From: Prevotella sp.
GTDB lineage: Bacteria > Bacteroidota > Bacteroidia > Bacteroidales > Bacteroidaceae
NCBI GenBank assembly: GCA_017483805.1
Contig: JAFUUL010000043.1
Span: 1-44,087 of the forward strand
Length of the DNA stretch: 44,087 nucleotides
Reading direction: 5' to 3'
Every line of letters begins with the position of its first letter. The stretch's first letter is position 1. The translations under genes and the position numbers were made by a program. Positions 2,211 to 43,585 of the stretch are shown here, one piece after another. Below the pieces are notes generated by a model, which searched no databases, was not told the DNA's origin, and saw only the letters and a list, made by a program, of their open reading frames with translations.

Positions 2211-2983
2211 AGTTTACTTAAAAATTGCTTGATTTCGTCAATGTTTTTCATCCCTGGCTCGGTTTCGAAACGGCTGTTCAGGTCGATGCCCATGAACTGG
2301 GGATGATGGAATGATTTGATACGCTCGGCGTCTTCGGGGCCGATGCCGCCACTCAAGAGGAAGGGCTTGGAGCCTTGGTAGGCTGAAAGGACGCTCCAGT
2401 TGAACTGCTGGCCGCTGCCGCCGACGGAGGGGGACTGGGTGTCGAAGACGAAGGCGTCGACGCAGGATTCATAGGGGGCGGTGAGGGTTGCGATGGAGGT
2501 TGCGATGGAGGTTGCGATGGTATCGCAACATACGGAACTGGTGGTGTCGCAGCATACGGAACTGGTGGTGTCGCAGCATACGGAACTGGCGGTGTCGCAG
2601 CATACGGAACTGGCGGGGATGGAGAGGGCCTTCCAGATCTGGATGCCAGGATGGAGGTCTGGGTCGAGCGTGGCGCGCAGGTTGCGGATCATGGTGGGCG
2701 TCTCGTGGCCGTGCAACTGGATCACGTCGAGGCCGAAGTTGACCACGCGGGTGATGATGCTCTGGGGCATCTCGTCGACAAAGACGCCGACACGCTGGAA
2801 TGACGTATTGCGGGTGGAGTATTGAGAATTTGCGCGGTCGGGGATGATGCCGGCGTGGGTGGGGCGCATGGTGACATAGCGGGGCGACTTGTTCCAGAAG
2901 ATGAAACCGATGTAGTCGACGCCCAGTTCACTGACCTGGCGGATGTTCTCGCCGTCGCGCATGCCGCATACTTTTATCTTCAT
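2207..2983 (-). CDS. trpF: phosphoribosylanthranilate isomerase with a repeat insertion
   Basis: TrpF performs the Amadori rearrangement of phosphoribosylanthranilate. The N-terminal [14 protein letters not shown] carries the catalytic Cys, and [21 protein letters not shown] with [11 protein letters not shown] carry the acid and phosphate-binding regions. At 258 residues it is longer than the usual 205-220. The excess is one block after WKALSIPA: four copies of an eight-residue unit SSVCCDT(A/T/I) followed by [11 protein letters not shown]. Homology resumes at [10 protein letters not shown]. All flanking core motifs are intact, so the enzyme may be functional with a surface loop added. It overlaps trpC and trpA by 4 nt at each end. 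The insertion is encoded by the repeats at 2487-2610. Confidence 0.93.
2487..2610 (+). repeat. tandem repeats inside trpF
   Basis: On the + strand this holds two 12-nt units (GTTGCGATGGAG, 2487-2510), then a complete hairpin element (2511-2538), then three 24-nt units (2539-2562, 2563-2586, 2587-2610). Each 24-nt unit ends in GTCGCAGC plus ATACGGAAC, that is, a right arm and tail without a matching left arm. All unit lengths are multiples of three, so the trpF frame is kept. The left part looks like expansion of the hairpin's left arm and the right part like expansion of its right arm and tail. Confidence 0.9.
2511..2538 (+). repeat. hairpin repeat family 1, copy in trpF
   Basis: Left arm GTTGCGAT (2511-2518), loop GGT, perfectly complementary right arm (2522-2529), then tail ATACGGAAC (2530-2538). 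It lies antisense to trpF. Same architecture as the copies at 23538, 26962, 27949, 31024 and 43558. Confidence 0.88.
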
Positions 2984-3717
2984 ATCTTTGCTATAAAATC
3001 TTTGAGTGCCAGCCCGGGTTGAGGCTCCTTCATGAAGGTCTCTCCGATGAGGAAACCGCAGAAGCCGACACTCCTTAATTCGTTGATTACCTGCGGATTT
3101 GATATTCCGCTTTCACTTACTTTTACAGCCTCCTTTGGCAACCGCTCGGCCAGCCGGAAGGAGGTCTCGACATCGGTCACGAACGAGCCCAGGTGACGGT
3201 TGTTGATGCCGCAGAGGTCGGGCTCCAGTTCGGCATATTCCAGTTCGCGCTCGTCGTGCATCTCGAGGAGCACCTCGAGGCCAAGGTCGTGGGCCAGCGA
3301 CATGAGCGCACGACAGCGCTCCTTGGACAGGCAGGCGGCGATGAGCAGCACGGCGGAGGCACCACAGAGGGCGGCCTCGTAGACCTGCATCTCGTCGATG
3401 ACGAAGTTCTTGTAGAGGATGGGGATGGTCACGCCCGACTGCCGTGCCTCGATGATGAAGCGGTCGTGCCCACCGAAGTAGTGCTTGTCGGTGAGGATGC
3501 TCAGGGCGGCGGCTCCGTTCTGCTGGTAGGCAAGGGGAATCTGGTCGGGGCGGCCATCCTCCTTGATCCAGCCCTTGGAGGGCGAGCGGCGCTTGAACTC
3601 GGCAATGATGCCCGTGGGGCTGTCGAGCAGGGCCTGGCGCAGGGAGGGCTTTTTCTGCTTCATCCGCGCCAGTTCCTCGTGCTTGGTGGCGACTATTTGT
3701 TGTAGGATGTCGTTCAT
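2980..3717 (-). CDS. trpC: indole-3-glycerol phosphate synthase
   Basis: A 245-residue TIM-barrel enzyme closing the indole ring in the fourth step of tryptophan synthesis. Diagnostic motifs are IAEFKRRSPSKGWI (substrate-binding Glu and Lys), ALSILTDKHYFGG, ILYKNFVIDEMQVYEA (catalytic Lys), GINNRHLGSF and KVSESGISNPQ. Length is normal for a monofunctional TrpC. It sits 25 nt after trpD and overlaps trpF by 4 nt. Confidence 0.97.
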   Translation of the reverse strand: MNDILQQIVATKHEELARMKQKKPSLRQALLDSPTGIIAEFKRRSPSKGWIKEDGRPDQIPLAYQQNGAAALSILTDKHYFGGHDRFIIEARQSGVTIPILYKNFVIDEMQVYEAALCGASAVLLIAACLSKERCRALMSLAHDLGLEVLLEMHDERELEYAELEPDLCGINNRHLGSFVTDVETSFRLAERLPKEAVKVSESGISNPQVINELRSVGFCGFLIGETFMKEPQPGLALKDFIAKI

Positions 3718-3742
3718 TTTTCGTTATCTCGTTATCACGTTA

Positions 3743-4756: not shown

Positions 4757-4794
4757 ATTGATTTGTCTTTTTCAGTTTTCTGGATGATCAGGAT

Positions 4795-7935: not shown

Positions 7936-7960
7936 ATATTTTTTAATTTGTGTTGATACC

Positions 7961-7998
7961 TTCAAAAAGAAAAGACTCGCCGTGATTCCCGACGAGCC
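7961..7998 (-). terminator. trp attenuator hairpin
   Basis: In the leader RNA a 9-bp stem (GGCTCGTCG at 7998-7990 with CGGCGAGTC at 7982-7974, two G-U pairs) is followed by TTTTCTTTTT, an intrinsic terminator ahead of trpB. An upstream leader segment GCCGTG (8029-8024) is exactly complementary to CACGGC (7984-7979), overlapping the terminator's 3' arm, and could form an antiterminator. Together with the Trp-rich leader peptide this is a classical attenuation layout. Confidence 0.85.
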
Positions 7999-8046
7999 TT
8001 TCTATGTTTTCTGTTCCTACATACACGGCTTGCACCCTCACGACTT

Positions 8047-8094: not shown

Positions 8095-8127
8095 ATTCTT
8101 TTTTCGCTTATTTGTTCGTTTCGGCTG

Positions 8128-23455: not shown

Positions 23456-23941
23456 ATGATGAAGTTTTCCTGGGCGAAGTTGATAGTGTCCGTAGTGCTG
23501 GTGGTGTGGTATTTTGCCATGCCGCAGTATAGTTTTGGTGGCTATGATATAGCCACATACGGAACAATTTGGGAACATCTGCTTTATCCTTTGAGTCATG
23601 CGAATGTGTGGCATTTAGGGGCGAATGTTGTTTGTTTGTGGATGATCACGTGCAGGCTTCATCTGTTGGGTTCCTATTTTGTGGCGGTGGGCTGTTCCTT
23701 TCTGCCCTGTTTTGTGAGTGAGGCGACTTTGGGGGTCAGTGGTGTGCTGTTTGCCATTGTCGGTATGAGTTGGGGTAGAGTAGGGCGATTTAAGGATATG
23801 ATTTGGAAGAACAAGTGGTTTCTTCTGATCCCGTTGTTTCTGCCCCATGTGAATGGGATGCTTCATTTGTATTGCCTGGTTGCGGGGTATTTGGTGGGGC
23901 GTTGCTTTGGTAAAGCAACATACAGGACGGATTGGGTATGA
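23456..23941 (+). CDS. small rhomboid-family intramembrane serine protease
   Basis: A 161-residue polytopic membrane protein with rhomboid landmarks: the HANVWHLGAN motif (HxxxHxxxN) in the second helix, catalytic Ser95 in LGVSGVLFA, and His131 in HVNGMLHLYCLVAG as partner. These proteases cleave within membranes. At about five to six helices it is near the minimal rhomboid size. A phage copy between a spanin-like gene and the terminase is unusual; it could process an envelope or virion protein. Its stop overlaps the terminase start (ATGA). A family-1 hairpin repeat lies in its early coding region, encoding GGYDIATYGT. Confidence 0.82.
   Translation: MMKFSWAKLIVSVVLVVWYFAMPQYSFGGYDIATYGTIWEHLLYPLSHANVWHLGANVVCLWMITCRLHLLGSYFVAVGCSFLPCFVSEATLGVSGVLFAIVGMSWGRVGRFKDMIWKNKWFLLIPLFLPHVNGMLHLYCLVAGYLVGRCFGKATYRTDWV
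23538..23565 (+). repeat. hairpin repeat family 1, copy in the rhomboid gene
   Basis: Left arm GTGGCTAT (23538-23545), loop GAT, perfect complement (23549-23556), tail ATACGGAAC (23557-23565). It begins at codon position 2, whereas the copies at 26962, 27949 and 31024 begin at position 1, so the conserved unit is the nucleotide sequence, not a peptide. Confidence 0.85.
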
Positions 23942-26808: not shown

Positions 26809-27741
26809 ATGGCTTATAATATTTTTGGTAACGACAAGCAGCAGAACTATCCTGGCACTCAACAACCGGAAGTATCAGTTGCTACACAGTCGCAACAGAC
26901 GGGAGGACAGGCCCAGCAGCAGGCCGGCGCTAATGCGCCTGGCACGGTGGCTGGAGAGGGGGTGGCTGTGGTACAGCCACAAACAGAACGTCCACAGAGG
27001 CGGGCGGTGGGTGCTGTTGATCCGACAAGTTCGACATCTGGCATGGATGCCGTCAGTTCGATGCTGACAACTCCGCAGCAGGAGGAGAAGATACGCAGGG
27101 CGAGCATTGCCAACCAGCGTATTATGGCCCTTGGCGATGCCTTGCGGCATGTGGGTAACATCTATCATACGGTGAACTATGCTCCGAGTCAGAAGTTCAA
27201 TTCGCCTGTGACGGAAGAGTATGAGCGTTATCAGAAGGGTAAGGCTGTGAGGGATGCCGCTAACTTGAAGTATTACACCTATCAGCAGCAGAAGGCCGCG
27301 CAGGATGCGCGGGCGAAGCAGTGGGAGACGGAGGCAAACTACCAGAACGAATCTTTGAAACTTCGCAGGGCTCAGCACGATCGATTGATGAAGGCTCAGG
27401 ATTTGGCTATCAGGAAAGAAGAGTTCTTGGAGGAATTGAAGAACAAGCAACTTGAACTTGATAGGATGGCCAAGGAGCACAAGATTACCATAGACCAGTA
27501 TAATGCCGAGTCAAGACGCTTACAGGCGCAGGCCGCCTATATGAGAGCCGAAAAATATGTGCCTGGAGGTGCTGGAGTTGGAGGTTACGAGACCATCACC
27601 GAGACCGAGAACCATTACGACGAAAACGGGCGTCGAACGGGCCAGACTACCAAACGGACACGCACGGGCTCCCATAAGGAGAACCCCTACGGCAATGACG
27701 GGAACAGCAATAACGATCACAGAAACAACCCATACGGATAA
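26809..27741 (+). CDS. coiled-coil late protein, probably virion-internal
   Basis: A 310-residue Gln-, Ala- and Asn-rich protein. The N-terminal 85 residues are low-complexity and contain both repeat families, translated GANAPGTVAG and VAVVQPQTERP. Residues about 85-250 form a long helical coiled coil (EEKIRRASIANQRIMALGDA, SLKLRRAQHDRLMKAQDLAI, KKEHKITIDQYNAES-like), and the C-terminus is Asn/Thr-rich. It lies just 3 nt before the giant gene and shares its linker repeats, implying joint expression and perhaps joint delivery into the host. No enzymatic motif seen. Confidence 0.72.
   Translation: MAYNIFGNDKQQNYPGTQQPEVSVATQSQQTGGQAQQQAGANAPGTVAGEGVAVVQPQTERPQRRAVGAVDPTSSTSGMDAVSSMLTTPQQEEKIRRASIANQRIMALGDALRHVGNIYHTVNYAPSQKFNSPVTEEYERYQKGKAVRDAANLKYYTYQQQKAAQDARAKQWETEANYQNESLKLRRAQHDRLMKAQDLAIRKEEFLEELKNKQLELDRMAKEHKITIDQYNAESRRLQAQAAYMRAEKYVPGGAGVGGYETITETENHYDENGRRTGQTTKRTRTGSHKENPYGNDGNSNNDHRNNPYG
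26926..26954 (+). repeat. hairpin repeat family 2, copy 1
   Basis: GGCGC, loop TAAT, perfect complement GCGCC, then T and GGCACGGTGGCTGG. Translated as GANAPGTVAG. Compare copies at 28012, 32131, 36460 and 40999. Confidence 0.7.
26962..26989 (+). repeat. hairpin repeat family 1, copy in the coiled-coil gene
   Basis: Left arm GTGGCTGT (26962-26969), loop GGT, perfect complement (26973-26980), tail AAACAGAAC (26981-26989). Relative to the copies in the giant gene, arm positions 2 and 3 differ on both sides of the stem, so pairing is preserved. Confidence 0.85.
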
Positions 27742-27744
27742 GAT

Positions 27745-30700
27745 ATGCCAAACTCATTAGAAAATCTTCATAGAAACCTGACCGCTGACGGATATAACCT
27801 TGGCAGTCTGGATGATTTCAAGGCCGCAATGGCGGACAGTACAAAGGCCAGCAATCTCCATAAGAACCTGTCGGCAGACGGGTATAACCTTGGTAGCCGC
27901 GATGACTTCTTCCGTGAGATAGGACTGGGAGGAGGCAGCGATACGAAGGCTGCTGTGGTACAGCAGCAAACGGAACGGCCTGCGGAGCAGGCGCAGGGGC
28001 AGACGGAGGCCGGTGCTGATGCGCCTGGCACGGTGGCTGGTGTGCCGAGAGTAGACCTTGGGCAGATGAAGAGGCAGTTCCGGGAGAGTGCGGGGCGGTT
28101 TATGCAAGACAAGACGGCTGGCGGCCCTCAGGGCGGTACGCCGTTGAGCAAGGAGGATAAGGCGCGGATGATGAGCCAGACAGATATGATGCTGGCGCAG
28201 CAGCAGGACTTGGGCCGTCATTTTGAGCAGCGTTGGGATGATGCGCAGGCGGCTGTTGGCAATATGAGTGCCGGCAGGAATGCGACTGGGAATGTTGGCG
28301 TCAATACCAACCTGAGAAAGGGCAGACAGAAGTTCAATGCCGAGACAGGCAGGTTTGAGGATACCTATGTGACCCAGTTGGGTAATGAGTACAGGAACCT
28401 GATGCAAGCAGAGGACGAGCAGGGTTACGTGGATGCCGTCCGTGAGCAGGAGCGGTATTTTGGTAATTTGAAGAGCCTGCTTGGCCCACTTGGTGATTTC
28501 GTGACTGACGAAGAGAAGAGTATCGATGAACGTCTGCAGGATGCCGCCAACGAGATTGCATGGATAGAGAACGAGATTAAGGCGCAGCCACGTGTTGATG
28601 TAGCCGCCCTCAAAAGAGAAGGTAAGTCGAAAGAAGAAATAGATGCTCTGCGCGAGAAGGTTAACCGGAACTCAATGTCGCTTGATGCCGCCTTGAATGA
28701 GGCCAAGAGAAGGCAAATAGCATTGGAGGCAGAACGAGACGATCGTGGTCAGAGTATGTTCTGGCGAGGTACTTGGGACACGCTACGTGATCCGTCGACA
28801 TACACCAACAATATGGCGGATCTGTCAGACCAGAAGGCTTTTGAGGGTATCAAGCGAGAGGTTGAGCAGGCCCAAAAAGAAGGTCGGCAGCCCCGACTTA
28901 CCAATGGCGAGAAGTTTTTGGTGCGCAACTACCTGATGAACCAGGAGGCCCAGCAGTTGAACGAGAACAGAGGCAGCATGTATGGGTATGGTCAGATGTT
29001 TGGTGCCAGTATACCCTTCATGGCAGAATTTGCCTTGACAGGCGGTTTTGCAGGCGTTGGCAAGGCAGGCACAAAACTTGGCACGAAGGCCGGCCTCCGC
29101 TATCTGAACAGCAGTATGGGCCGTTGGATGATGAAGAACATGGGTGCCATCCCAACCAAGGCCCTCCAATATTCACTGAAGGGTGCCGGCTGGGTAGGCG
29201 GTGCTGCGGCAGGTGGTGCTTTACAGAGCAATACCATCGGTATGGCGAAGACTATGGCAGACATAGAGAGCCGCTATATAGGTAATATGACCATCGGCAG
29301 TGACGGGCAGATAGCGTTCAAGGATGCCGAAGGTCTGGGCGAAGCCATCCTGAAAGGCGAGTTGACCAACATCGGTGAGAACGGCTCAGAACTATTGGGT
29401 GGCGGTTTTGACTTTCTGCCCAACATCCTTGGCAGAGTTATCAAACGCAGTGCCGTCGGTGCACCTCTGAGAAGGCTTGCCAGCAACAAGGCTTGGCGTG
29501 CCGGCAACAAGACCCTTGACTACCTGGGTGTGCAGGGTGTGTTTGGTGAGGGTATGGAAGAAGAAGCCAACAGTATGTTTAACGCCATCATCGGCGAGAG
29601 CAACTGGTTCAAAGATCCCAACGACCCGAGCAAACCAGCCTTCTTTGACGGCAAGGAACAGTTGGACACGTGGATCAGCGTTGGGCTAACGAGCATGATA
29701 CTCCGTGGCCCACAGATGGCTGGTAGCGGTTTCCAGAAAGCCCAGTATTACGGCTATAAGTACAATATGGGTATGAGCAATCGCCGTGCCAATAAACTTT
29801 TCGGTGCAGACCGATGGGCAGCGGTTCGCGAGCAGATAGACAACAGCAGCAACAAGACCCTTGGCCAGACGCTGAACGGCTACTTGAACGATGCCAGTCT
29901 CAGTCGCGAAGAGAAGCAGGCCATGATGATGTACGCCAACGACCTGGTTATGGTTCGCGGTTTCAATATGGCTACGATGCTTGCCAACGCCAACGGTGTG
30001 CAGGGGCGTGCCCGCACAGACCGCTTTAATGTTCGTGGCAACGTGATAGAGGAACTGGATGCCGAAGGCAACGTGATAGAGAGCCACGAGTACGAGGACA
30101 GAGACGAAATGAAAGCCGGTCTTTACGAACTGCAACAGAAGCGTGCCAATCAGGATATGCTCAGTGATATTGAGGCCGCCAAGGTTCGTCCTGACGGGTT
30201 CTACGATGCCTTTTTGGATGATTTTCTCAGTGGCGGTATGCCGAAAGAAGAACTGGAGGCGATGCTGCAGAAAGACCCAATGGAACGCAGTGACTGGGAG
30301 CAGGCGGTGGTAAATGCTTTTTCGAGCCGCCTTCATTCTATGGTCTATGACAACACCGAACTGCATGAGGAGCAGAGCACAGAGGATGGGCAGGATGTAG
30401 CCGACGAGATGGCTATAGACCTCGACGAGACCGATGGCAGTAAGGCGCAGGAGGTGGCGGCCGCTTTCAATACCGCCAAGCAGGCCCGCGAGCAGTTGTT
30501 TGCAGGCAACGAGGAACTGGCACAGGAAGTGCTCACGAGGGAAGTGCAGGGTGTTTCCCCGCAAGAGATACTTTCCTCGCTTGACACCTTCCGCGAAGAA
30601 GATGTTCAAGTGCTGATTGACTATTACAACCAGAAAGCCCGTATGGAAGGCATGATGAACAGGTTGGGCCAGCATGTGGAAGAAGAGGCCCGCAGAAGCA

Positions 30701-33700
30701 GGGAGAATCATACCTTCAAGGGCACCATCAACGGAAAACCGACACAGACTCATGTATATACTATTACGGACGGCACGAATGAGTATTACCTTGTGAGCGG
30801 AAATGTCGCCACCGATCCTGATACAGGCCAGATTACAGGGTCGGACTCCGGGCTTGTGATTGGCATGGACTCGGACGGCAGTTTCGTGTCGCTTGGTGAT
30901 GCCAGCGGGTATAGTGTGTTACCTCCTACACAGAGTCTTGACGAGTTTGAGGAGGCCGAGCGTGCAAGGCTCGGTGAACTGGTGACGGCTGCTGTTGACC
31001 CCGAAGGGGCGATGGGGCAGGAGGCTGCTGTGGTACAGCAGCAAACGGAACGACCAATGGTACAGGAGGGAGCGGGGCTTGATAATGCCGGCGGCGAGGC
31101 AGGCCAAGAGATGGCCGGAGGAAACAAACCGCAGGCGGCCGCTCCTTCCATTCCCGTGGATGAAAGTGGCGTGAAGCGGTATGAGCAAGGCGTGGCGATT
31201 GATGATGCTATAGCCGATATGGAGGCTGACGGCCTGGATGTGAATGCCGAGACCGACCTTGCCATCAGCGAGGCACAGGCCGAACTGGACAAGATTAAGG
31301 CACCGAAGACCCGTGCAGAGCGTGTGAAGAATGCGCAGCGCCAGCAGGAGTTGCAGGGAGCGATAGACTATTATACGCAGTTGAAGCAGCGTTATGGCGA
31401 GTTGCACCCGCCATATGTAGACCCGCGGCCTTATATCGACCGACTGAATGCCACCACCAGCAAGCGCAAGGCCGACGAGATAGTGAGCGAGGCTCTGCAG
31501 GCAGGCGTGAAGCCCGAAGAGATACAACCCGTACACACCCAGCGCGTGTCGGATATTATAGCCAAGGAAGAGGAAGACAGGAGAAAAGCCGAAGAAATCA
31601 CTGACTATGACCTGTCACTGATAGAGAAGCACAAGGGAACGCCCGAGGGCCGTGCCTATCTGCTTGACAGGAAGCGTGTGCCAAGTGCCGAGAAGCGCAG
31701 GAAGATAGCACAGTTGGTGTATGGTGAGTTGTTTGACGGCGACTTTGATGCCTGGCGTGACGAGCAGGAACTCATCTCGTTGTGGCTTGGTAAAGGTCGC
31801 GCCCTTGATCCAGATTCGTTCGGTCAGGAACTTGGCTGGGATATGGGTGTCGGTAAGGATGCCGCCAAGGTGAGCACGATGTTTACCGCCAGGAGAGACA
31901 ACGGCGGTGACGGCATGCTGTTCAACGACTTCGTACACATGGTGATGGAGGCCAGTGGCGGTCGCTATGATACCGAAGAGATACGCGATGCTGTTATAGC
32001 CATGTTCCAGGGTGCGCAAGAGAAGAGCGACCTGACGGAGTACCAACTTACCTCCCGTGTGGCCGAGGCCGAGCAGGCCTTGCGTGGGCGGGAAGAGATG
32101 GAGCAGGAGGCAAAGATTGACGAGACCGCCGATGCTGATGCATCGGGCACTGTGGCTGATGAAGATATGTTGCCGTTTGGCCCAGATATTGAAGGCGGAG
32201 AGCGGCCAGCCTTTCTCAGTGATGACGGTGTAGGCTACGACAGCCAAGGCAACCCCATTGATGCGGAAGGCAGACTTATATTGAACCCAGTCGACTCCAT
32301 TGACGAGATAACGGATGAAGATTTCGAGAGTCCGACCCGTAATATTCAGTTGCCTCAGTTGCCAGAAAACGTGCAGTCGGCAATAGGGACCAATGGCAAG
32401 CCGGTTGTTATCAAGAAGAGTGTATTTGAGAAGAACGGCACAACCCATGTAGAATTAGAGCCTGGAGACAGTAGGAGTATTCTCAAGTCAGCCCTTTATA
32501 ACCCCAATCTTGTTGGTCAGACACAGCCCATAACGCGACCCGATTACAAGGTAGCCATACAGACAGGCGACAAAAATGCCGTTGTCGTGCTCGATGTGTA
32601 TGCCGGCAAAGACAATGTAGAAATTGTCGGATGGCGCTATGTCAACGAAAAGGGTCTGGAGAAGATGAAAAGACAAGCAGAACGCGAGGGCGGGCAATTC
32701 CTCATACTTTCTCCCAGTGATGGGTCGGCAGCAGCCCTTTCTGCTCTTCCGTCCACGGACTTGTCTTCTGAGGGCAAAGATACGAAAAATACAGATACGA
32801 ACCAAGAAAAAGAGGAGAAAAAAGAAGAAATTAACACTTCCGACCCCTTGGAGGCCATAGAGCAGGCGGCAGAAAGTGTCCGTGAGAACAGGCAAACATC
32901 TGATTACGGCAAGGATAATAAGTTGGTGACGCAAGACAGGTATGAGGAACTGAAGAAGCGTATGAAGGCTAAACTGCTTGGGCAGTTGAACGCCGGTTTC
33001 GATCCAGAGATTCTTGCCATCGGCACAGAAATGGCCGTATTCCATATAGAGGCAGGAGCGCGAAAGTTTGGTGACTTTGCCCAGCGCATGATAGACGAGT
33101 TGGGTGATGCCATTCGTCCTTATCTGAAAGGCATCTATAATGGCGCGAGGGAGATGCCGGGTATGGAGGAATTGCGAAAGCAAATGACCTCGTATGAGGG
33201 TGTTTCGATGCAAGATGTGCAAAAGATTGCTAATACGGCAGACAATTCTGTTAACGAACACAAAGAGGAGAATGACGAAGCGGAAAATGTTGTATCTTTG
33301 CAGCAGGAAAGCCCGAGCGAGGGTGGTCGCCAGCCAAAATTGGCCGGCGAGGTGACGGCTGAGCACAAATCCGAGGATGCTGACAAGTACCGTGCTTTTT
33401 CTCAGTCTGTGGCTGACGATATGCTAGCAGCGATGGAGGCTGGCGAGAGGCCCTACAAGAGCATCAAGGATATTCGTGCAAAAGCAAAGGGTGTTGGTCT
33501 TGAAGTAGATGACGAAGGCCGTACTGACATACTCTTACAGGAGTTGGTGGAAGATGGGTTGGTGAGTGCCGCCCGCCAATACGTGAATGCCTATGTGATG
33601 CAGCAGGTGCTATCAGGCCGTACAGCCCAAGATGTGAGACAGAGCCGTGACCTCTTCAATGATATAGTGAAACTCTATCAGTTGCAGCCCTCTATCACCC

Positions 33701-36700: not shown

Positions 36701-39700
36701 GTATTGACAGAACTGGACAGGTGCATCGAGGCTATTATATCAACCTTGGCTTGCCAGTACCTGCAGAGACTCGTTTCATGATGATGCTTGCCAACAAACT
36801 GAAATCGCTGAATGCCAATACCACCACCTCGCAGGAGAACAAGGATAACGAGGTGGATGCTCCCGACCTATTGAACAAGTACGGTGACCAGGTGATGATA
36901 GAATATCTGAGAGACAATCCCGATGTATATCGTAAGTTGGGTGAGTTCTTGAAGGACAGGTCAGAGCCAGGAGCCTCGACCGTTTCTGCAGCAAGGCTGG
37001 ACGAGTACAAAGCGAAGGAAGGTGACGCAAGACAGATAACAGGTCGTGTTGCCCTGCTGAGTGTAGACGAGCAGGACGACTTCTACGATGATGTGACCCG
37101 TCGCTATAATGAGTTGATCAAGTATCTGAACGACACCAATAGCAACGACTTGAAGATAACTGTCATGCCGTTGAGGGCACGGACGATAGACAGGCAGGTG
37201 TCTTCGGAGGGTACAGCGCCGGGAACCACCAATCCGTTTGCCGATAATGCCTACGTAGAGTGGGTGGAGATGGATATTCTCAAGAAGCCCATGAAGGCCG
37301 ATGAGGTAAGCAGGACTATTGAGCAGTTGAATCCAGAAGGCAGGGTGCAGCAGATTATCGCCACCGTGGAGCGCGAGACACAGGAGAAACTGGACAAGGA
37401 GCAGGAGCGTTACGAGGCAGCCAAAGCCAAGGCCGAGGAAGATATTAAGGCCAAGGCTGAGGCCATTAACGGTCAGCAGAAGCGCACGCCAGAACAGAAG
37501 AAGGAGGCTGTAGACAAGTATGCAACCGAGAAACGTCAGGCCCTTGAAGAAAGCCACCAAAAGATGGTGAACAAGATAGACGCCAACCATGAGCGCCTGA
37601 TGAAATACCTGCGTATGTTCAGCGTTGGCGACTCCGTTCTTGTGCCTGATGATTTGACCACCGACGCCTTCCTTGGCTCTGTGAACGGCATCTTCTGTGG
37701 ATTTAAGGCCAAGGACGAGAATGTCACCCAGTCGACCACCCTCGCCGTATTTGTCACCCTTGACGGCCGCAGAAAGATTGAGGTAAAGATTTCTGACTGG
37801 AACGCACTGGCCCGTATCAACAATATGACGCAGGAAAACTGGGATGCCGCTCAGGAGGTGACGCTATCCAACTGGGATAGTCAGATACCGACGAGCAGCC
37901 GTAAGCATGGCTATATCATGACGGGCAACATCTTGCAGGCCATATCAGACACCAACTTCCAGGGCCATCTGATTACCTTTACCGACAGCGAAGGCAACGT
38001 GAGAGACGGTTTGTTGATGCCCGACAAGTGGGAGCCAAGCCAGTTGAAGGGAGCCACGGTGCCTATCTCTCAGAGGAAAGAGAGAATCAAGAGTCTTCCG
38101 ATGAAGGACAAGGTCACCAGTGCTGACGGCCGTGTGACCATCACCCGCTATTGGGGCTACTACCATCTGGATGTTCCCAAGTCGAAGAAGCAGGGTGGTG
38201 AGTTCTACCTTGACAAGAGGTTGCTTGACTTGGTGAATGGCAACGACTTCTTTACAGCCAGCGGCAATATGCGCGGCACCGTGCCAAACGAGAACATTGA
38301 TGCCGTGCTTGACCGCCTGGGAGAAATGGGCGTGACGCTGCCGAGCGACAGGAAGGTGGAGTTCAACGAGACAATAGACACGGAAGACCCGATAGATGCC
38401 ATCCGTCAGGCTGCTAATGGTTGGAGAAGAAGCGTGAAAGAATCTGAAAGTTCGTTAAGCGAGTCCTCACAAGTGAATGAGTCTGAAAAGAAATCCGTAC
38501 CTTTGGAGCGCAGGACAATGAAGTCCTACACCGATAAAGATGGAAATTACCATACAGGAATTGAAGAAGAGATTGCCGGATTGGAATCCGACATCGCCCG
38601 AGCAGGAAGAGAAGATGCTGGAACTGATGAAAAAGTTTCAGAAGCACAGACTTCCTCCCGACCCGTTTCTGGACGAAGAGTAAACGAACTTCGCCGCGAG
38701 GCCGCCAAACTTCGTGCCGAGATAGCCCGTCGCAATCAGAAGAAGCAGGATTTACGTAAGAAGTACAACATCGACGAGAAAGGCAATATCTCTCTCGACG
38801 ATTTGACACGTATGTTCCGCGACCTTAATAGTAATAAGGTATTAGGCAAGTTGTTTGATAAGGTGTTTGACATTCTTAATACTCTTGGCACCAAGTTCCG
38901 ATTCTCTGATAACTTTGATGCTCTTACAGGTGGTGAGGCATTCGGTTACCTTAACGGAATATTCCTGAATTGGGATGTTTACACCCGAGATGTTCCAGAC
39001 CAGCAGAAAGCCAAGACCATTCTCCACGAAATGATCCATGGCGTGGCCTATCAGTTGTTGGACCGCTACGAAAACCAGTCTGTTCGCAAACTTTCTGCCG
39101 CACAGGAGAAGTTAGCCAAGGAAATCTTTGACATCTACGAAGCGGTTAAGAAAGCCAACCCCAAGGATAAGAAAGGAGGAAGTCCTTACGGCCTGACAAG
39201 TGCTCACGAAATGCTTTCGGAGATTGCAAATCCTGAGTTCCGAAATATTCTCGATAGCATACCATATCGTGAAGGTATGAGTGTATGGCAAAGACTGAAA
39301 GAGTGGCTGAAAGATGTTTTAGGTTCATTTGGCCTTGACATTAAAGGCAACACAGCCCTTAATAGTCTGGAGAAAGCCTTTGATGATGTTATCGACAATT
39401 ACGACGATACGGGCATCGGAGAGTATAGCGGTATTCTTTCAGAGGTAGAGCAAGATATAAGGAATGCCGGTTACAAGGGTGACATCATGGACTTGGTGGA
39501 AGAAAACTTCCTTGACGGTGGTGGCACTGCTTCACTTGTTGAGGATGAAGAACTAATCAAGAGACTGGAGTCGGAGCCCAAAATAAAGGTATATCGCGCC
39601 ATGCAATTGCAGGGTGGCAAATTATACCCACCAATGGCCGCCAAGGTAAACGGCAAGTGGCAAGACCCGCTGCCGCTTGGTGAGTGGTCGCAGGCAGACG

Positions 39701-42700
39701 AGCATCCAGAACTGGTTGATAAGAATGGCAAGTTTACGCTCGACAAGGGTAACGGCAAGACCGTAGCCGGTGTGGTGTATGCGCCATATATGCACGGCTC
39801 TACCACAATGCTTAACGACCAATTCAAGGAGGCGCAAGACCGTCCTGAGTTAGTTGTTGTTGAGGCCGAAATGCCAGAATCAGAACTGACAAGCGGTTAT
39901 CAGGCAGAGAAGAGTCCGAGAAGGACAGGCCGTTTGCCTTGGAAGGCAGGCACCATACAAGGTCAGTTGACGGGAACACGCGATGTTATCCTCTCCCGTT
40001 GGGTGAAGCCTATAAGGATCGTACCCGCTTCCGAGGTTGCACAGAGCATTAAGCAGATGATTGACGGACAGGTGGAAGTGATGCCTACCAATGTCGTTAC
40101 TCCCGAGCAGCGCGAGGAACTGGAGAAACTTGGCGTAAAGTTTGTGAAGACCAGCAACCAGGAAATCGTGCAGGAGGGTGAGCATAAGGGTGAGCAGTAT
40201 TCTGACGCCTACGGGAAAAAGGCGAAGCGGAAAGCCCGTCCGAGATCGGCCGTGCAAGGTAGAAAGAAGGCGGTTGACGGCGACCCGATACAAGCCATTA
40301 AGGATGCCGCCAGCAAGTGGGTCAGAGGTAAGGCAGACAGAGAGGGAATGACCCCCGAGGCACACTCTGCCAAGGCCGTATATAACGAGCGACTGAACAC
40401 TGTGGAGATGGTGTTTGCTGAGGCATATCAGGACGCTATGGTATCGCTGAAAACGGCTCAGAACGCTATCGCGCAGGATAAGGATATTCCCGACTCGCAG
40501 AATGCCTACATGGCAGAGAACCTGATGCACGGCAAGAACAAGAACGAGCAGGACTTGTATAATAAGATGTTCCGTGACCCGCTGATTGCCACCATCAACA
40601 AGATTATGAACGCAACGGGTATGAACTGGGGTGACGTAGACCGTTACGTCTACACCAAGTCAGGCTTGGAGCGAAACAGGGAGTTCTTCGTTAGAGACTG
40701 GCTCGCCAAGGAGATGGGCAAGACAACAGACGCTTCTGAACTGACCCGTCTTAAGCAGTTGTCGGATGACTGGCAAGACAAGAAAAATGCGGCCTACGAG
40801 GACCTGCAGGATGGCTTTATTAGTTTCGCAGAATATCTTGAAGAACTAGACAGATTCGTCCGCACGAACCTGGACAGTGGCTATGTGGCCGAGGATCATG
40901 ACTACTCAGGATTCAGAGCCATGTTTGGTGATGAAGAGGGTGAGTATGACGAGGCCGCTATCATCGAGGAACTGATGGAGCAGGAGGGTGCTATTGCCGA
41001 TGCTGACGCATCGGACACGGTGGCCACCCTTTGGGAGCAGATACGAGGTGCTACCCGCTACGGACTGGAGAGATACAGGGAGGCCGGTATGCGCAGCGAT
41101 GAGCAGATAGACCAGATAGAGAGTATGTTCCACTGGTATGTGCCTATGAGAGGGTTCAAGGAAGACAAGGGTGAGGATATGTACCAGTATTTCACGGCCA
41201 AGGGAACCTCCAAGAGTTATGTTGGAGGGCTGTTGAAACATGCCAAGGGTCGTGGTAGTGAGGCTAACTATCCTATCTCTACCATCTTTGCCATGACCTA
41301 TAAGGCTATCTCCGACTGCAATCAGAACATGGTGAACCAGAAACTCTACCGTCTGTGTCAGGCCAATCCGAACGACCTTATCGTGCTGAGTGACAGTTGG
41401 GCTGTGCTTAATGAGGCTACGGGAGAATGGGAGGAAGTCGCCCCCGAGATTGATGACGATATGAGCGAAGAGGAGATTCGCGAGGCTACGCTGGCTTGGG
41501 AAGAGAATATGCGGCAGATGGCATCTGCCGGGAATGCGAAGAAGATAACCGGCAGGGCACAGTTGGACTACAAGCCGATTGACAAGAAAAACAGGTCGGA
41601 GCATGTGGTAGAGGTGCGCATCAACGGTCAGCCGAAGCGCATGACCGTGGTCGGCAATCCCCGTATGGCGCAGGCTTTGAACGGGCAGTTGCGGTTTGAG
41701 AGGGGCAAAAACATCTTCTCGAAGTGGAACGCATCCATAAAGAATATGATGGCCTCGCTGTTTACGACCTATTCGCCCACGTTTGCTCTGAGAAACATGT
41801 TCCGCGACTGGACACACTTTCGCATGATGCTGGAGGTACGCGAGGGTCACGGCTATGCTGCACGGGCCAACAAGTACTATCGCCAGTCGTTGTTCAAGAT
41901 GGTTGGCTTGTTCAAGAAATATCGTGAGGGTACGCTTGACGAATCGAAGGAGATTGAGCGCGACTTCAAGGACTTTATGGATAACGGCGGCATCACAGGT
42001 TTTGTGTTCATGCAGAAGATAGATGATATCCAGAAGGAAATGGAGGATATCTATAAGAAGCAGAAAGCAGGAAAACACATTCGTCTGAACAACAACATAT
42101 GGGAGAAGATACTTGGTGCAGTAGAAGCAGTGAATGAGGGTATCGAGAACAATGCCCGCTTTGCCACCTACAGAACCTCACGTCACTATGCCGGCCGCAC
42201 CAAGGCACGCTCAGCCTACGATGCCAAGGAGATAACCGTGAACTTCAACCGCAAGGGTGCAGGCGGTAAGACCTATGGTTTCAAGAGTCAGAGCAAGGCC
42301 GTTGAGGATGCTGCAAAGGCATTCGGCGTGACGAGTCAGATTCTTGGTGAGGGTCGTATCTTCTTCAACGCAACGGTGCAGGCTATTGCCACCACGTTCA
42401 AGAACTTCCAGAACCAGGATGGCAGTCTGAACAAGAAGTATATAGCCAAATGGGCATCGATGTATGCTTTGCCTCCATTTATGTTTGGACTTGCCTTGCC
42501 GATGATTAACAAGGCGCTCGCAGCCGCTCTTGACGATGACGGCGATGATGATCCGTATGCAAACCTAGCAGAGTGGACGCGACGCAGAAACATCTGTATA
42601 TACATAGGTGGTGATAACTTCATTACTATCCCTGTAGGCCAGGAGTTGGCAGCATTCCTCTCGTTGGGTGACATTGTTGCCGGCAATACCTATGCTCCGG

Positions 42701-43551
42701 AGTTAAAGCCCGTAGACAGGAGTTGGGATGAGGAAATTGTCGGCGTGATGAATACTTTCTCGCCAGTGGATATTTCTACTAAGATAACCAAGGGTGGCCT
42801 GATGGAAGACCCGATAAGCGAGGTGGCAGGCAGAACCTTCTCGGTGCTGGCACCATTGGTGGCCGTTGAGCAGAATCTTGGTTGGACGGGCAGACCTATC
42901 TATAGAGAGGACAGATATCCCAACGACAAGTTTAAGCCCGAGTATCAGCAGGTGTATAGTGGTACGAATCCCGTATTGGTAGGCGCGTCGCAGTTGCTGT
43001 CAGAGGCCAGTGGAGGCAATGAACGCAAGAGGGGAGCAATAGAAATCAATCCCGCTATCGTTCAGTATCTATGGGAACAATACGCAGGTGGGCCAGGTAA
43101 GGTGTTCTCTAACACTATCTCCATCGGCAAGGATGCTAAGGACCTGCTTGTCAATGGCGAGGCCCCTGACTTCAACATCCGAAAGGTGGAAGGCATAAAG
43201 GCTTTTATTCAGCAGGGTGATGACCGCACGCAATACTATCGCGCTCAGACCAAATTCTGGAACTACTCAGACAAGGCCGACCAGTTTAGATATGAGCATG
43301 ACATTGCCAATCTGGAGAAGCAGGCCAAGACAGACCCCATGGCAAGAATAGAGTTGGAGGAACTGAAAAGGACTACCGACTATATTCGTATGGACATATT
43401 GCGTGAGGCTAACCGAGACAGCAAGAAAGAAGGCAAGGTGGGTCTTGACACGATGCGCAAGAATGCCAAGACGAGGGCCGAGAAGCGGGCGTACAACGAG
43501 GCTATGAAGGCGGTAGTGGACTTGCTGGATGAGGTTGGGGAGATGGAGTAG
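27745..43551 (+). CDS. giant polyvalent protein (methyltransferase, helicase, metallopeptidase-like, LPD-type modules)
   Basis: 5268 residues in one frame. In order: two tandem N-terminal repeats (LTADGYNLGSLDDF, LSADGYNLGSRDDF; 1-60). A Gly/Ala-rich, partly hydrophobic region, about 410-670, could contact membrane. Long coiled and acidic segments follow. A small beta/alpha module, about 1543-1660, precedes a helical module at 1732-1810. The N6-adenine methyltransferase has motif I LEPTAGNGM near 2020 and NPPFGG from 2080. The strawberry-notch-like helicase has Walker A GDQTGVGKGR (2439-2448), DESQ (2592-2595) and GRIDRTGQ (2985-2992). A zincin-like HEMIH lies at 3761-3765. An ADP-ribosyltransferase-like stretch has R3951, S4019 and E4040. 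The C-terminal part, about 4660-5100, looks like the LPD38 type. Phage P1 DarB also joins methyltransferase and helicase and enters the cell with the DNA to block restriction; an analogous role is inferred. Confidence 0.85.
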   Translation: MPNSLENLHRNLTADGYNLGSLDDFKAAMADSTKASNLHKNLSADGYNLGSRDDFFREIGLGGGSDTKAAVVQQQTERPAEQAQGQTEAGADAPGTVAGVPRVDLGQMKRQFRESAGRFMQDKTAGGPQGGTPLSKEDKARMMSQTDMMLAQQQDLGRHFEQRWDDAQAAVGNMSAGRNATGNVGVNTNLRKGRQKFNAETGRFEDTYVTQLGNEYRNLMQAEDEQGYVDAVREQERYFGNLKSLLGPLGDFVTDEEKSIDERLQDAANEIAWIENEIKAQPRVDVAALKREGKSKEEIDALREKVNRNSMSLDAALNEAKRRQIALEAERDDRGQSMFWRGTWDTLRDPSTYTNNMADLSDQKAFEGIKREVEQAQKEGRQPRLTNGEKFLVRNYLMNQEAQQLNENRGSMYGYGQMFGASIPFMAEFALTGGFAGVGKAGTKLGTKAGLRYLNSSMGRWMMKNMGAIPTKALQYSLKGAGWVGGAAAGGALQSNTIGMAKTMADIESRYIGNMTIGSDGQIAFKDAEGLGEAILKGELTNIGENGSELLGGGFDFLPNILGRVIKRSAVGAPLRRLASNKAWRAGNKTLDYLGVQGVFGEGMEEEANSMFNAIIGESNWFKDPNDPSKPAFFDGKEQLDTWISVGLTSMILRGPQMAGSGFQKAQYYGYKYNMGMSNRRANKLFGADRWAAVREQIDNSSNKTLGQTLNGYLNDASLSREEKQAMMMYANDLVMVRGFNMATMLANANGVQGRARTDRFNVRGNVIEELDAEGNVIESHEYEDRDEMKAGLYELQQKRANQDMLSDIEAAKVRPDGFYDAFLDDFLSGGMPKEELEAMLQKDPMERSDWEQAVVNAFSSRLHSMVYDNTELHEEQSTEDGQDVADEMAIDLDETDGSKAQEVAAAFNTAKQAREQLFAGNEELAQEVLTREVQGVSPQEILSSLDTFREEDVQVLIDYYNQKARMEGMMNRLGQHVEEEARRSRENHTFKGTINGKPTQTHVYTITDGTNEYYLVSGNVATDPDTGQITGSDSGLVIGMDSDGSFVSLGDASGYSVLPPTQSLDEFEEAERARLGELVTAAVDPEGAMGQEAAVVQQQTERPMVQEGAGLDNAGGEAGQEMAGGNKPQAAAPSIPVDESGVKRYEQGVAIDDAIADMEADGLDVNAETDLAISEAQAELDKIKAPKTRAERVKNAQRQQELQGAIDYYTQLKQRYGELHPPYVDPRPYIDRLNATTSKRKADEIVSEALQAGVKPEEIQPVHTQRVSDIIAKEEEDRRKAEEITDYDLSLIEKHKGTPEGRAYLLDRKRVPSAEKRRKIAQLVYGELFDGDFDAWRDEQELISLWLGKGRALDPDSFGQELGWDMGVGKDAAKVSTMFTARRDNGGDGMLFNDFVHMVMEASGGRYDTEEIRDAVIAMFQGAQEKSDLTEYQLTSRVAEAEQALRGREEMEQEAKIDETADADASGTVADEDMLPFGPDIEGGERPAFLSDDGVGYDSQGNPIDAEGRLILNPVDSIDEITDEDFESPTRNIQLPQLPENVQSAIGTNGKPVVIKKSVFEKNGTTHVELEPGDSRSILKSALYNPNLVGQTQPITRPDYKVAIQTGDKNAVVVLDVYAGKDNVEIVGWRYVNEKGLEKMKRQAEREGGQFLILSPSDGSAAALSALPSTDLSSEGKDTKNTDTNQEKEEKKEEINTSDPLEAIEQAAESVRENRQTSDYGKDNKLVTQDRYEELKKRMKAKLLGQLNAGFDPEILAIGTEMAVFHIEAGARKFGDFAQRMIDELGDAIRPYLKGIYNGAREMPGMEELRKQMTSYEGVSMQDVQKIANTADNSVNEHKEENDEAENVVSLQQESPSEGGRQPKLAGEVTAEHKSEDADKYRAFSQSVADDMLAAMEAGERPYKSIKDIRAKAKGVGLEVDDEGRTDILLQELVEDGLVSAARQYVNAYVMQQVLSGRTAQDVRQSRDLFNDIVKLYQLQPSITQRSSNRIKMQQYSTPLPMSFVADVFAYSDGMKDVLEPTAGNGMMVFAIPESSVHANELDATRLDNLRAQKFKKVTDQDATEPFEGNEQYDAVIANPPFGGAVAKEYDGKMIPGLAEQIALNALSKMKDDGKAAIIIGGNMEYAPNGAIKSDKAFFTYLYDHYNVKGVIDMDGKLYSRQGTTYPTRMILIDGRRSEEERAQTKVYPPVKDNAPRKATTFDELFDIAEEIRNNNNKTNGNEVLRTSGPVVESNTGNTQRQSQGERRRGESDANGTDGQSRSARRTGGEPAVRGNEPGVVQQPSGVVSRQNGTGGLSTVSQRPSATDRGETRTDNGRGSDVGGTERVQPARPSNKQTGQQRDERVEEKRELTSDKLPYRPHNGAFSLESVAPAAMVEAMDNTLKEIEREFGNVDDFVTTELGYDSAEEMHNALAAEQVDSVAMAIWNMKKGEGMVIGDQTGVGKGRQMAALIRWAVRQGKKPVFVTKDADLFSDIYRDLVDIGSGDLRPFIFNSGVTITDANGRVVHKSLSDATQKKVLAMDELPDGFDFAILSYPQMNTGDRISQEESGKEAKDRGERGKKGKAVKAGRPTPKADFLRKISKDNYLLMDESQNAAGSGNTGAYFQSILKDAKAVTFASATFAKRPDTMPLYAIRTAISKAKVKTWELIQMISKGGVTLQEIMSRAMTSAGQMVRRERDMSDVRTDWKTIDAPETSQKARRDYDNVMRAFNAIISFQEDYIAPVLAAKSAEFASMASTVTERRGTEKAGVDNPPFVNRLYNFSKQLLLSLKVDAVVDEVVKEIEAGHKPVIALENTLESALDEYAVGDTIDDPTLFGKLKKGLDACFRYTIKNEDGDEMGGVLQPEELGEEGERAYNELVDLIQESTQGMFISPLDAITEKLKARGIKVGEISGRKSRAVFVSDADASDTVAGHYEVRKRENTDRKKLARDFNSGDLDVLIINKTGSTGISLHASKRFTDQRPRTMIMAQPLSDINDYMQMIGRIDRTGQVHRGYYINLGLPVPAETRFMMMLANKLKSLNANTTTSQENKDNEVDAPDLLNKYGDQVMIEYLRDNPDVYRKLGEFLKDRSEPGASTVSAARLDEYKAKEGDARQITGRVALLSVDEQDDFYDDVTRRYNELIKYLNDTNSNDLKITVMPLRARTIDRQVSSEGTAPGTTNPFADNAYVEWVEMDILKKPMKADEVSRTIEQLNPEGRVQQIIATVERETQEKLDKEQERYEAAKAKAEEDIKAKAEAINGQQKRTPEQKKEAVDKYATEKRQALEESHQKMVNKIDANHERLMKYLRMFSVGDSVLVPDDLTTDAFLGSVNGIFCGFKAKDENVTQSTTLAVFVTLDGRRKIEVKISDWNALARINNMTQENWDAAQEVTLSNWDSQIPTSSRKHGYIMTGNILQAISDTNFQGHLITFTDSEGNVRDGLLMPDKWEPSQLKGATVPISQRKERIKSLPMKDKVTSADGRVTITRYWGYYHLDVPKSKKQGGEFYLDKRLLDLVNGNDFFTASGNMRGTVPNENIDAVLDRLGEMGVTLPSDRKVEFNETIDTEDPIDAIRQAANGWRRSVKESESSLSESSQVNESEKKSVPLERRTMKSYTDKDGNYHTGIEEEIAGLESDIARAGREDAGTDEKVSEAQTSSRPVSGRRVNELRREAAKLRAEIARRNQKKQDLRKKYNIDEKGNISLDDLTRMFRDLNSNKVLGKLFDKVFDILNTLGTKFRFSDNFDALTGGEAFGYLNGIFLNWDVYTRDVPDQQKAKTILHEMIHGVAYQLLDRYENQSVRKLSAAQEKLAKEIFDIYEAVKKANPKDKKGGSPYGLTSAHEMLSEIANPEFRNILDSIPYREGMSVWQRLKEWLKDVLGSFGLDIKGNTALNSLEKAFDDVIDNYDDTGIGEYSGILSEVEQDIRNAGYKGDIMDLVEENFLDGGGTASLVEDEELIKRLESEPKIKVYRAMQLQGGKLYPPMAAKVNGKWQDPLPLGEWSQADEHPELVDKNGKFTLDKGNGKTVAGVVYAPYMHGSTTMLNDQFKEAQDRPELVVVEAEMPESELTSGYQAEKSPRRTGRLPWKAGTIQGQLTGTRDVILSRWVKPIRIVPASEVAQSIKQMIDGQVEVMPTNVVTPEQREELEKLGVKFVKTSNQEIVQEGEHKGEQYSDAYGKKAKRKARPRSAVQGRKKAVDGDPIQAIKDAASKWVRGKADREGMTPEAHSAKAVYNERLNTVEMVFAEAYQDAMVSLKTAQNAIAQDKDIPDSQNAYMAENLMHGKNKNEQDLYNKMFRDPLIATINKIMNATGMNWGDVDRYVYTKSGLERNREFFVRDWLAKEMGKTTDASELTRLKQLSDDWQDKKNAAYEDLQDGFISFAEYLEELDRFVRTNLDSGYVAEDHDYSGFRAMFGDEEGEYDEAAIIEELMEQEGAIADADASDTVATLWEQIRGATRYGLERYREAGMRSDEQIDQIESMFHWYVPMRGFKEDKGEDMYQYFTAKGTSKSYVGGLLKHAKGRGSEANYPISTIFAMTYKAISDCNQNMVNQKLYRLCQANPNDLIVLSDSWAVLNEATGEWEEVAPEIDDDMSEEEIREATLAWEENMRQMASAGNAKKITGRAQLDYKPIDKKNRSEHVVEVRINGQPKRMTVVGNPRMAQALNGQLRFERGKNIFSKWNASIKNMMASLFTTYSPTFALRNMFRDWTHFRMMLEVREGHGYAARANKYYRQSLFKMVGLFKKYREGTLDESKEIERDFKDFMDNGGITGFVFMQKIDDIQKEMEDIYKKQKAGKHIRLNNNIWEKILGAVEAVNEGIENNARFATYRTSRHYAGRTKARSAYDAKEITVNFNRKGAGGKTYGFKSQSKAVEDAAKAFGVTSQILGEGRIFFNATVQAIATTFKNFQNQDGSLNKKYIAKWASMYALPPFMFGLALPMINKALAAALDDDGDDDPYANLAEWTRRRNICIYIGGDNFITIPVGQELAAFLSLGDIVAGNTYAPELKPVDRSWDEEIVGVMNTFSPVDISTKITKGGLMEDPISEVAGRTFSVLAPLVAVEQNLGWTGRPIYREDRYPNDKFKPEYQQVYSGTNPVLVGASQLLSEASGGNERKRGAIEINPAIVQYLWEQYAGGPGKVFSNTISIGKDAKDLLVNGEAPDFNIRKVEGIKAFIQQGDDRTQYYRAQTKFWNYSDKADQFRYEHDIANLEKQAKTDPMARIELEELKRTTDYIRMDILREANRDSKKEGKVGLDTMRKNAKTRAEKRAYNEAMKAVVDLLDEVGEME
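27949..27976 (+). repeat. hairpin repeat family 1, first copy in the giant gene
   Basis: Left arm GCTGCTGT (27949-27956), loop GGT, perfect complement (27960-27967), tail AAACGGAAC (27968-27976). Translated AAVVQQQTER, in a linker after the N-terminal repeats. Confidence 0.85.
28012..28040 (+). repeat. hairpin repeat family 2, copy 2
   Basis: GGTGC, loop TGAT, GCGCC (one G-U pair), then T and GGCACGGTGGCTGG. Translated GADAPGTVAG, about 35 nt after the family-1 copy; in the neighbouring gene the two elements occur in the opposite order. Confidence 0.65.
31024..31051 (+). repeat. hairpin repeat family 1, second copy in the giant gene
   Basis: Identical in arms, loop and tail to the copy at 27949, 3.1 kb downstream. 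Translated AAVVQQQTER in a Gly/Ala/Glu-rich linker. The flanking sequence is unrelated, so this is a discrete element, not part of a long duplication. Confidence 0.85.
32131..32158 (+). repeat. hairpin repeat family 2, copy 3
   Basis: GATGC, loop TGAT, perfect complement GCATC, then GGGCACTGTGGCTG. Translated DADASGTVAD. It lies in the acidic linker before the 1543-1660 module. Confidence 0.65.
34406..34786 (+). CDS. 126-residue ORF embedded in the +1 frame of the giant gene
   Basis: Starts with ATG at 34406 after an A-rich stretch typical of Bacteroidetes start regions. It reads METKYYAPQGQLWSLTLATH, then VVENLMRMALMDSQEVPDAQ, and ends SLQDLVISKLDSSATRE. Its composition is that of a normal folded, acidic, helical protein. 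The giant protein over the same bases is low-complexity (Gln/Arg/Gly/Thr/Ser linker) between the methyltransferase and the helicase. The contrast suggests that this frame is or was the primary coding frame and that the giant frame is overprinted. Function unknown. Confidence 0.6.
   Translation: METKYYAPQGQLWSLTLATHSGNLRESDVVENLMRMALMDSQEVPDAQEASQQLEEMSQESYSNLRAWCRDRMAQEDFQLYLNDHPLPIGEKLEPITDEEAMWEVLNEYSLQDLVISKLDSSATRE
36460..36488 (+). repeat. hairpin repeat family 2, copy 4
   Basis: GACGC, loop TGAC, GCATC (one C-A mismatch), then GGACACGGTGGCTGG. Translated DADASDTVAG, within the helicase region between the two recA-like parts. Confidence 0.6.
40999..41025 (+). repeat. hairpin repeat family 2, copy 5
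   Basis: GATGC, loop TGAC, perfect complement GCATC, then GGACACGGTGGCC. Translated DADASDTVAT, before the C-terminal region. Confidence 0.65.
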
Positions 43552-43557
43552 GTGGTG

Positions 43558-43585
43558 GTCGCTATAATATAGCGACAGACGGGAC
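43558..43585 (+). repeat. hairpin repeat family 1, intergenic copy
   Basis: Left arm GTCGCTAT (43558-43565), loop AAT, perfect complement (43569-43576), tail AGACGGGAC (43577-43585). It begins 7 nt after the giant gene's stop codon and is not translated, unlike the other element copies. Confidence 0.82.

Follow-up and report, generated by a model that had tools for sequence, protein, structure and literature searches.

A translated palindromic repeat shared by Prevotella genes and phages, and a divergent RAYT transposase as its probable partner

RAYT enzymes and the REP palindromes that accompany them have been sorted into subclasses, of which 2.4 lies closest to the system considered here: in the part of the source available to us, its palindromes are described as lying in frame within the enzyme gene, between the HuH and Y motifs, with Bacteroidetes among the hosts, and Table 1 gives it the motifs NH[IFV]H, WQ and YIxNNP, a GT[AG]G foot and a core without later extension (PMC6006769). 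According to the same excerpt, subclass 2.6 and class 3 include atypical structures that lack GT[AG]G. Intragenic REPs have likewise been described, and those covered in the accessible portion of PMC3733652 include RPE-4 and RPE-6 of Rickettsia. Since both subclass 2.4 and intragenic REPs are published, at least in those portions of the two papers, a system of the kind reported below is already known, while REP dissemination is termed poorly understood in the available part of PMC8266576. Searches of open PMC text, including Prevotella with RAYT or REPIN and REPs with phage, returned no paper on the present repeat family among their top matches.

The repeat was noticed in the window, a 44,087-nt stretch of DNA from Prevotella sp. 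that forms contig C190 of its genome assembly. The original prediction listed six copies in it, each with an 8-bp stem, a 3-nt loop and a 9-nt tail; all six are present with this anatomy, and the list was too short, as two further copies begin at 23901 and 26878. The copies and their immediate context are:

2207-2983, minus strand: host trpF gene, which contains the copy at 2511.
2487..2510, plus strand: two tandem 12-nt left-arm units, GTTGCGATGGAG, adjoining that copy.
2511..2538, plus strand: full copy with stem GTTGCGAT, loop GGT and tail ATACGGAAC, within trpF, antisense and in frame.
2539..2610, plus strand: three tandem 24-nt partial units (3' stem half and tail), which prolong the trpF insert.
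23538..23565, plus strand: in-frame copy within the rhomboid-like ORF at 23456-23941, part of the integrated element, coding for the peptide GYDIATYGT.
23901..23928, plus strand: perfect copy, additional to the original six, at the C-terminal end of the same ORF (KATYRTDWV), with the tail variant ATACAGGAC.
26878..26905, plus strand: degenerate copy with 7 of 8 pairs (model match at E 2.1), also additional to the original six.
26962..26989, plus strand: copy inside the ORF 26809-27741.
27949..27976, plus strand: copy in frame in a 5268-aa polyvalent gene (27745-43551).
31024..31051, plus strand: copy with the same sequence, gene and phase as that at 27949.
43558..43585, plus strand: copy 7 nt past the stop of the 5268-aa gene.

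The copy at 2511 is part of a small tandem array, with left units at 2487-2510 and tail units at 2539-2610. The 5268-aa protein has LPD13, helicase, N6-methylase and LPD38 matches and belongs to a tRNA-adjacent integrated element, in which the tRNA adjoins an integrase and PcfJ/PcfK are also encoded; since its terminase match is only weak, this may be an integrated element of another kind than a phage.

The pattern GYNGCNNTRRTANNGCNNCANACGGAAC has 16 matches in the 3.63-Mb genome (199 contigs) and its reversed control has none, showing that the family is real. At the four stem pairs that the pattern leaves free, 61 of 64 cells are Watson-Crick, two are G-U and one is a mismatch (16 matches, 13 of them distinct), and the covariation, evaluated on 16 distinct copies, is lost when the partner columns are slid, which bears out the earlier claim of compensated stem changes. 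That stem positions 1, 4, 5 and 8 are fixed holds for the original six copies and for the 16 distinct copies, which were picked partly by that very pattern, and fails in some of the weaker copies. A covariance model gave at least 124 matches at E ≤ 10 in this genome, with two-tailed sites counted on both strands and 150 of 2332 candidates scored. The copies occur in two forms with a common stem, GTNGCNNT/ANNGCNAC. The one-tailed form often has a GRT loop together with the tail ANACGGAAC, and the two-tailed form carries an additional GTTCCGTNT on the left (called with up to three mismatches), yielding a palindrome of about 37 nt whose centre is often closed. Two-tailed copies make up 23 of the 53 classified host copies, versus none among the 36 copies that C99, C188 and C190, the phage-like contigs, carry. 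Tandem arrays occur in another genome, G009, with six copies at a 66-bp period and four at a 37-bp period (L057 on its contig C23; C8:35401-35539). When 30 relatives, the window's own genome included, were searched with the model, nine had a match at E ≤ 0.1, three of them weakly, and all nine belong to the window's genus. The exact pattern is present in at least 109 stretches of GTDB genomes; among the matches listed, the assignments are to Prevotella, Prevotellaceae, Bacteroidaceae or Bacteroidales, many of them from the rumen or other ruminant stomachs, and one is labelled Alphaproteobacteria.

Within the host chromosome the repeat is mostly a component of genes: 40 of the 53 classified copies are intragenic with respect to called genes, a set in which one copy is counted twice (L449 and L450 are one 3-kb stretch on two contigs) and which excludes opposite-strand duplicates and the copies at C129:88, C129:437, C120:26646, C28:37842 and C97:36936 (E 0.017). 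That 3-kb stretch, common to contigs C144 and C197, and the ends of the phage contigs C99 and C188, which are 96% alike over 220 bp, are a sign of duplicated or mixed assembly. The affected genes encode proteins that we take, from their sequences, to be TrpF, CarB, MnmG (two copies), a leucyl-tRNA-synthetase-like protein and a cobalamin-pathway protein (two copies), among others. Comparison of loci with and without the insertion yielded insert-free orthologues for trpF, carB and mnmG, in which the inserts are in frame and absent from most relatives. The trpF insert, of about 37 aa, is missing from all 21 relatives that aligned among the 29 supplied. Of 21 close CarB orthologues, one (L262) has a related insert, one (L258) has a different short insert at the same place and the remainder lack one. 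Neither of the two MnmG inserts recurs as such among 29 relatives aligned, though several of them have other insertions at those loops. In one relative (L251, from G035) the same MnmG loops hold a serine-rich repeat and other low-complexity inserts, which suggests further insert families. A comparison of 270 copies with the loci fetched for them gave 17 pairs with and without the insert; among those listed, for 10 copies, some alignments are loose and one case is a RAYT linker variant. The conclusion originally drawn from the placement of the copies, that a conserved peptide is excluded, is only half right, since many of the copies lie inside intact ORFs and are translated there, with a preference for a few frames. 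In L011 and L020/L073 the copies contribute, by our reading, to the coding of what resembles an N-terminal signal peptide in two proteins that look secreted.

The reading frames of these intragenic copies depart from chance. One-tailed copies in genes of the window's genome are antisense in 21 cases and sense in none, and two-tailed copies are antisense in 8 and sense in 11; in a set of 140 copies taken from other genomes, the one-tailed ones that lie in genes are antisense in 19 cases (15 of them in one frame) and sense in one, and two-tailed copies in 38 and 24, respectively. Overall, 40 of 41 one-tailed in-gene host copies are antisense, and the probability of at most one sense copy in 41 is about 2e-8 if two sense and three antisense frames are taken to be open. 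In genes oriented along with the fork the coding strand is a lagging-strand template, but the antisense excess is larger than replication direction alone should give.

The original prediction saw neither host nor phage specificity, a view that the distribution of the copies corrects. Contigs C99 and C188, the phage nature of which is apparent from head, tape-measure, portal, primase and integrase matches, and the window contig C190 carry the repeat at about 20-21 times the density of the remaining genome, where the counts are lower bounds, and 33 of their 36 copies have a single tail and a loop that begins with G, whereas host copies are mostly intragenic and often two-tailed. The difference in gene placement between host and phage copies has p 1e-5 after the window copies at 23538, 23901 and 26962, called intergenic by a crude gene caller yet lying in ORFs, are moved into ORFs; because of this caller the phage intergenic counts are soft, and only 14 of the 36 copies lie in no ORF of at least 100 aa on either strand. 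Among the viral contigs of IMG/VR, 39 stretches contain the pattern and none contains its reverse. In these stretches 88 matches were obtained at E ≤ 0.001, of which 87 have one tail and 77 are located outside called genes, with mixed loops (GAT or GGT in 47 of the 88). In the fetched parts of the 39 viral loci there is no RAYT match at E ≤ 1e-10.

The phage copies are strikingly polar. On C99 the plus strand carries 21 of 22 copies, several of them among minus-strand genes, and 19 of the 20 viral loci with two or more copies (L215, for example, has four) are uniform in strand, the exception being L209 with two copies on each. When related viral loci are joined, 13 of 13 clusters are uniform (p ~1e-10), or 12 of 13 (p 5e-8) if L209 represents its cluster, values that are optimistic because copies on one phage may share descent. 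Transcription bears no relation to the orientation of the copies, as the neighbouring genes of viral copies are both sense to the copy in 31 cases and both antisense in 26. A regulatory RNA hairpin, or an RNA-protein binding site in phage and host transcripts, would be compatible with the conserved hairpin and tail, with the covarying stem and with the many phage copies just outside called genes. Since it is the contig strand, rather than transcription, with which the phage copies agree, however, this option, one of those originally offered, loses ground; the one-tailed copies in host genes are antisense, an Rfam search of the window returned no match apart from one tRNA, and we consider an RNA element very improbable. 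A single strand per phage whatever the direction of the genes is, on the other hand, what single-strand-specific insertion predicts. The near-uniform strand and the roughly 21-fold density on the three phage-like contigs would also agree with a polar DNA signal of the phages, such as a packaging, segregation, recombination or priming hairpin, that has spilled into host genes. Such a signal would not be expected to interrupt host genes in frame, nor to sit at one site inside the RAYT genes described below and at their ends, nor to co-occur with a single RAYT branch, and it therefore appears a most unlikely origin of the family.

Contig C81 of the same genome encodes a divergent RAYT in a 409-aa RAYT-like gene that contains a two-tailed copy of the repeat. 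A 266-aa Y1 transposase on C106 had been the first candidate; the best repeat match in its locus scores 9.9 bits, and for that reason it was dropped in favour of the C81 enzyme. The C81 protein matches the NCBIfam model REP_Tyr_transpos at E 1.3e-6 and 28.4 bits, under the curated cut-off of 80, and a Pfam search assigned it no family, while the HUH and Y motifs (DHxH and YLxxNP) are invariant in 10 aligned RAYT proteins. Its homologues continue for about 150 conserved residues after the Y motif. This C-terminal domain, which in members of the alignment A5 (e.g. L319:2068-2544) has the motif GAVLVSPxISxGEK...ENGFTDLAKPGG..., found no convincing match in Pfam, PDB sequences or PHROGs. A DprA-like reading, suggested by motifs, is a lead only: DprA chains were matched at E 0.63-0.7, these matches were lost with a wider profile, and Pfam DNA_processg_A was matched by 1 of 16 members at E 0.089.

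The repeat is embedded in this enzyme branch in a regular manner. Among 22 close full-length RAYT genes, 21 (all but L382) have it in one and the same linker, where the palindromes are in frame and lie between the HuH and Y motifs, and 16 have a further copy at one or both gene ends (3' in 13 genes and 5' in 4, with one gene in both counts), in a set where two contigs stop within about 260 nt of the RAYT gene. Stems of at least 8 bp are present in 18 of the 22 linkers versus 1 of 181 windows of equal length elsewhere in those genes, and in 10 of 19 linkers versus 3 of 118 windows for 19 other RAYTs. In several RAYT genes the linker and 3'-end hairpins are matched variants, with GTCGCTGT at both places in L395 and the pair GTTGCGTT/ATTGCGTT in L391. 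The 3'-end repeat codes for the last RAYT residues (SVCC...) in L380, L381, L139 and L145.

Repeat and enzyme also co-occur among genomes. In a survey of 150 genomes of the genus, in which a genome was called repeat-positive at E ≤ 0.001 and up to 50 candidates were scored per genome, so that match counts are minima, 66 were repeat-positive. These include 21 of the 22 genomes whose RAYT is a close homologue of full length (59-71% identity, together with the window's genome) versus 45 of 128 others (Fisher p 6e-8), and 19 of 22 versus 29 of 128 (p 2e-8) if at least three matches are demanded, a threshold that copies within the RAYT gene alone seldom suffice to reach; the counted matches average 15.5 in the genomes with the full-length homologue. 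Four further genomes, in which the close homologue is only partial, are positive without exception. The association is specific to the branch, as no enrichment is seen where a genome's RAYTs are all of other kinds (24 of 46, p 0.12). Against the pairing, one genome, G106, has a close RAYT yet no repeat. A second pairing, with a different sequence, was found in G011, whose RAYT is 52% identical and has a linker hairpin of its own, CTTGCGCTTTGCAAGCGCAAG: at least 41 matches to the joined linker query were obtained there with 40 of 76 candidates scored, 40 of them besides the linker, all on the hairpin and one at the RAYT stop (L322, L349, L354-L376). By BLAST, the linkers of other RAYTs matched beyond themselves at one place in G014 (93%) and at two short places in G007, and those of C13 in the window's genome and of G016 gave no dispersed copies; since BLAST would miss short variable copies, the pairing is demonstrated for the C81 branch and G011 only. 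Different tandem coding repeats occupy the same linker in other RAYT paralogues (L345/L018 on C13, L323 and L343 in G014, L342 in G007).

These data also bear on a selfish palindrome in the manner of the Rickettsia palindromic elements, spread by an unknown mover and with the RAYT gene as one more target. In-frame palindromes inside unrelated genes would be typical of such an element, and a RAYT match at E ≤ 1e-30 is lacking in 17 of the 66 repeat-positive genomes (17 of the 78 genomes that lack one), among which two have 19 and 21 repeat matches, which counts against strict pairing; these cases may be explained by incomplete assemblies or by another RAYT. A chance target, however, would hardly be struck in the same linker in 21 of 22 genes and at the gene end in 16, and neither the branch-specific co-occurrence nor the independent pair in G011 would follow, so that we regard a RAYT-free palindrome as having little probability. 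All three alternatives, RNA regulator, phage polarity signal and selfish palindrome, rank below the RAYT explanation.

We therefore consider it highly likely that the repeat is the cognate palindrome of the divergent RAYT (TnpAREP), an HUH/Y1 single-strand DNA transposase, encoded on C81 of the same genome. Among the possibilities originally raised, that of a REP-like sequence mobilised by a transposase of Y1/RAYT type is favoured by the co-occurrence among genomes, the repeat in and beside the RAYT gene, the second RAYT-repeat pair and the insert-free loci. By analogy with IS200/IS605 and with E. coli TnpAREP in vitro, as presented in the available part of PMC8266576, the enzyme would bind the hairpin in single-stranded DNA through its fold and the GTTCCGTNT/ANACGGAAC foot, cut it and join it into exposed single strands. 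Mobilisation of this kind would take place above all during phage or chromosome replication, giving one polarity per replicon, and replication of phage DNA would account for both copy density and polarity. Copies that keep the frame would persist in coding sequence as translated loop insertions, and as they survive in genes, host genes would serve as the reservoir and phages as the carriers. A bolder version can be put forward only tentatively, and we hold it to be somewhat less probable than its negation: a new RAYT branch with a conserved C-terminal domain may spread translation-tolerant palindromes, with replicating phages both as its principal single-stranded target and as its means of passage from one Prevotella species to another, and the strand polarity in phages may record the direction of single-strand exposure.

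The system offers an enzyme-palindrome pair together with many phage sequences that are natural records of landing, and its strand bias tells single-strand insertion apart from models of RNA function. It also supplies a concrete candidate mover for in-frame palindromic inserts in housekeeping genes, a pattern otherwise best known from Rickettsia; in TrpF, CarB, MnmG and other proteins such inserts show up here as extended loops.

Set against the described systems, the repeat and its RAYT probably form a REPtron in the broad sense, with the HUH and Y motifs present (NCBIfam score below cut-off) and a cognate palindrome that occurs at the enzyme gene as well as scattered through the genome. Like REPtrons and subclass 2.4, as far as the accessible part of PMC6006769 describes them, it combines an HUH/Y1 enzyme with a palindrome that is found at the gene flanks, dispersed, and in frame inside the enzyme gene. 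Unlike subclass 2.4, from which the motifs published in that part set it apart, it has DH[FL]H and YLxxNP, no WQ at the presumed matching place, the foot GTTCCGTNT and, beyond the Y motif, some 150 conserved residues. The 5' GT[AG]G tetranucleotide that defines the foot of a canonical REP (PMC6006769) is absent from the copies examined, which have GTTCCGTNT (tail ANACGGAAC) instead, and the location of canonical REPs, mainly extragenic, differs from that of the host copies, most of which are in genes. In common with Rickettsia palindromic elements, the palindromes lie in frame in unrelated protein genes. Short palindromes in housekeeping genes, and REPs that supply stop codons, liken the family to the intragenic GTAG/CGTC REPs and to RPE-4 and RPE-6, whereas the REPs in the available portion of PMC3733652 are mostly intergenic and here 40 of 53 host copies are intragenic and a RAYT branch is linked to them. 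The strand-specific single-strand chemistry with palindrome recognition of IS200/IS605 (PMC8266576, available part) is the model that we apply, but the dispersed element here is gene-free, and no joint movement with the enzyme gene was observed. The TnpAREP/REP pairs of E. coli and S. maltophilia, in the same part of that review, share enzyme-palindrome co-evolution and, in one class, perfect palindromes, and differ in having the GTAG motif. Polarity here belongs to single phage copies and is independent of gene direction, unlike in the REPINs and REP arrays of Pseudomonas fluorescens as the accessible text of PMC3116915 presents them. What is of a known kind is therefore the REPtron and the intragenic REP, and what is new is a RAYT branch with an unmatched C-terminal domain, a foot other than GTAG, and a loading of phages with a defined polarity.
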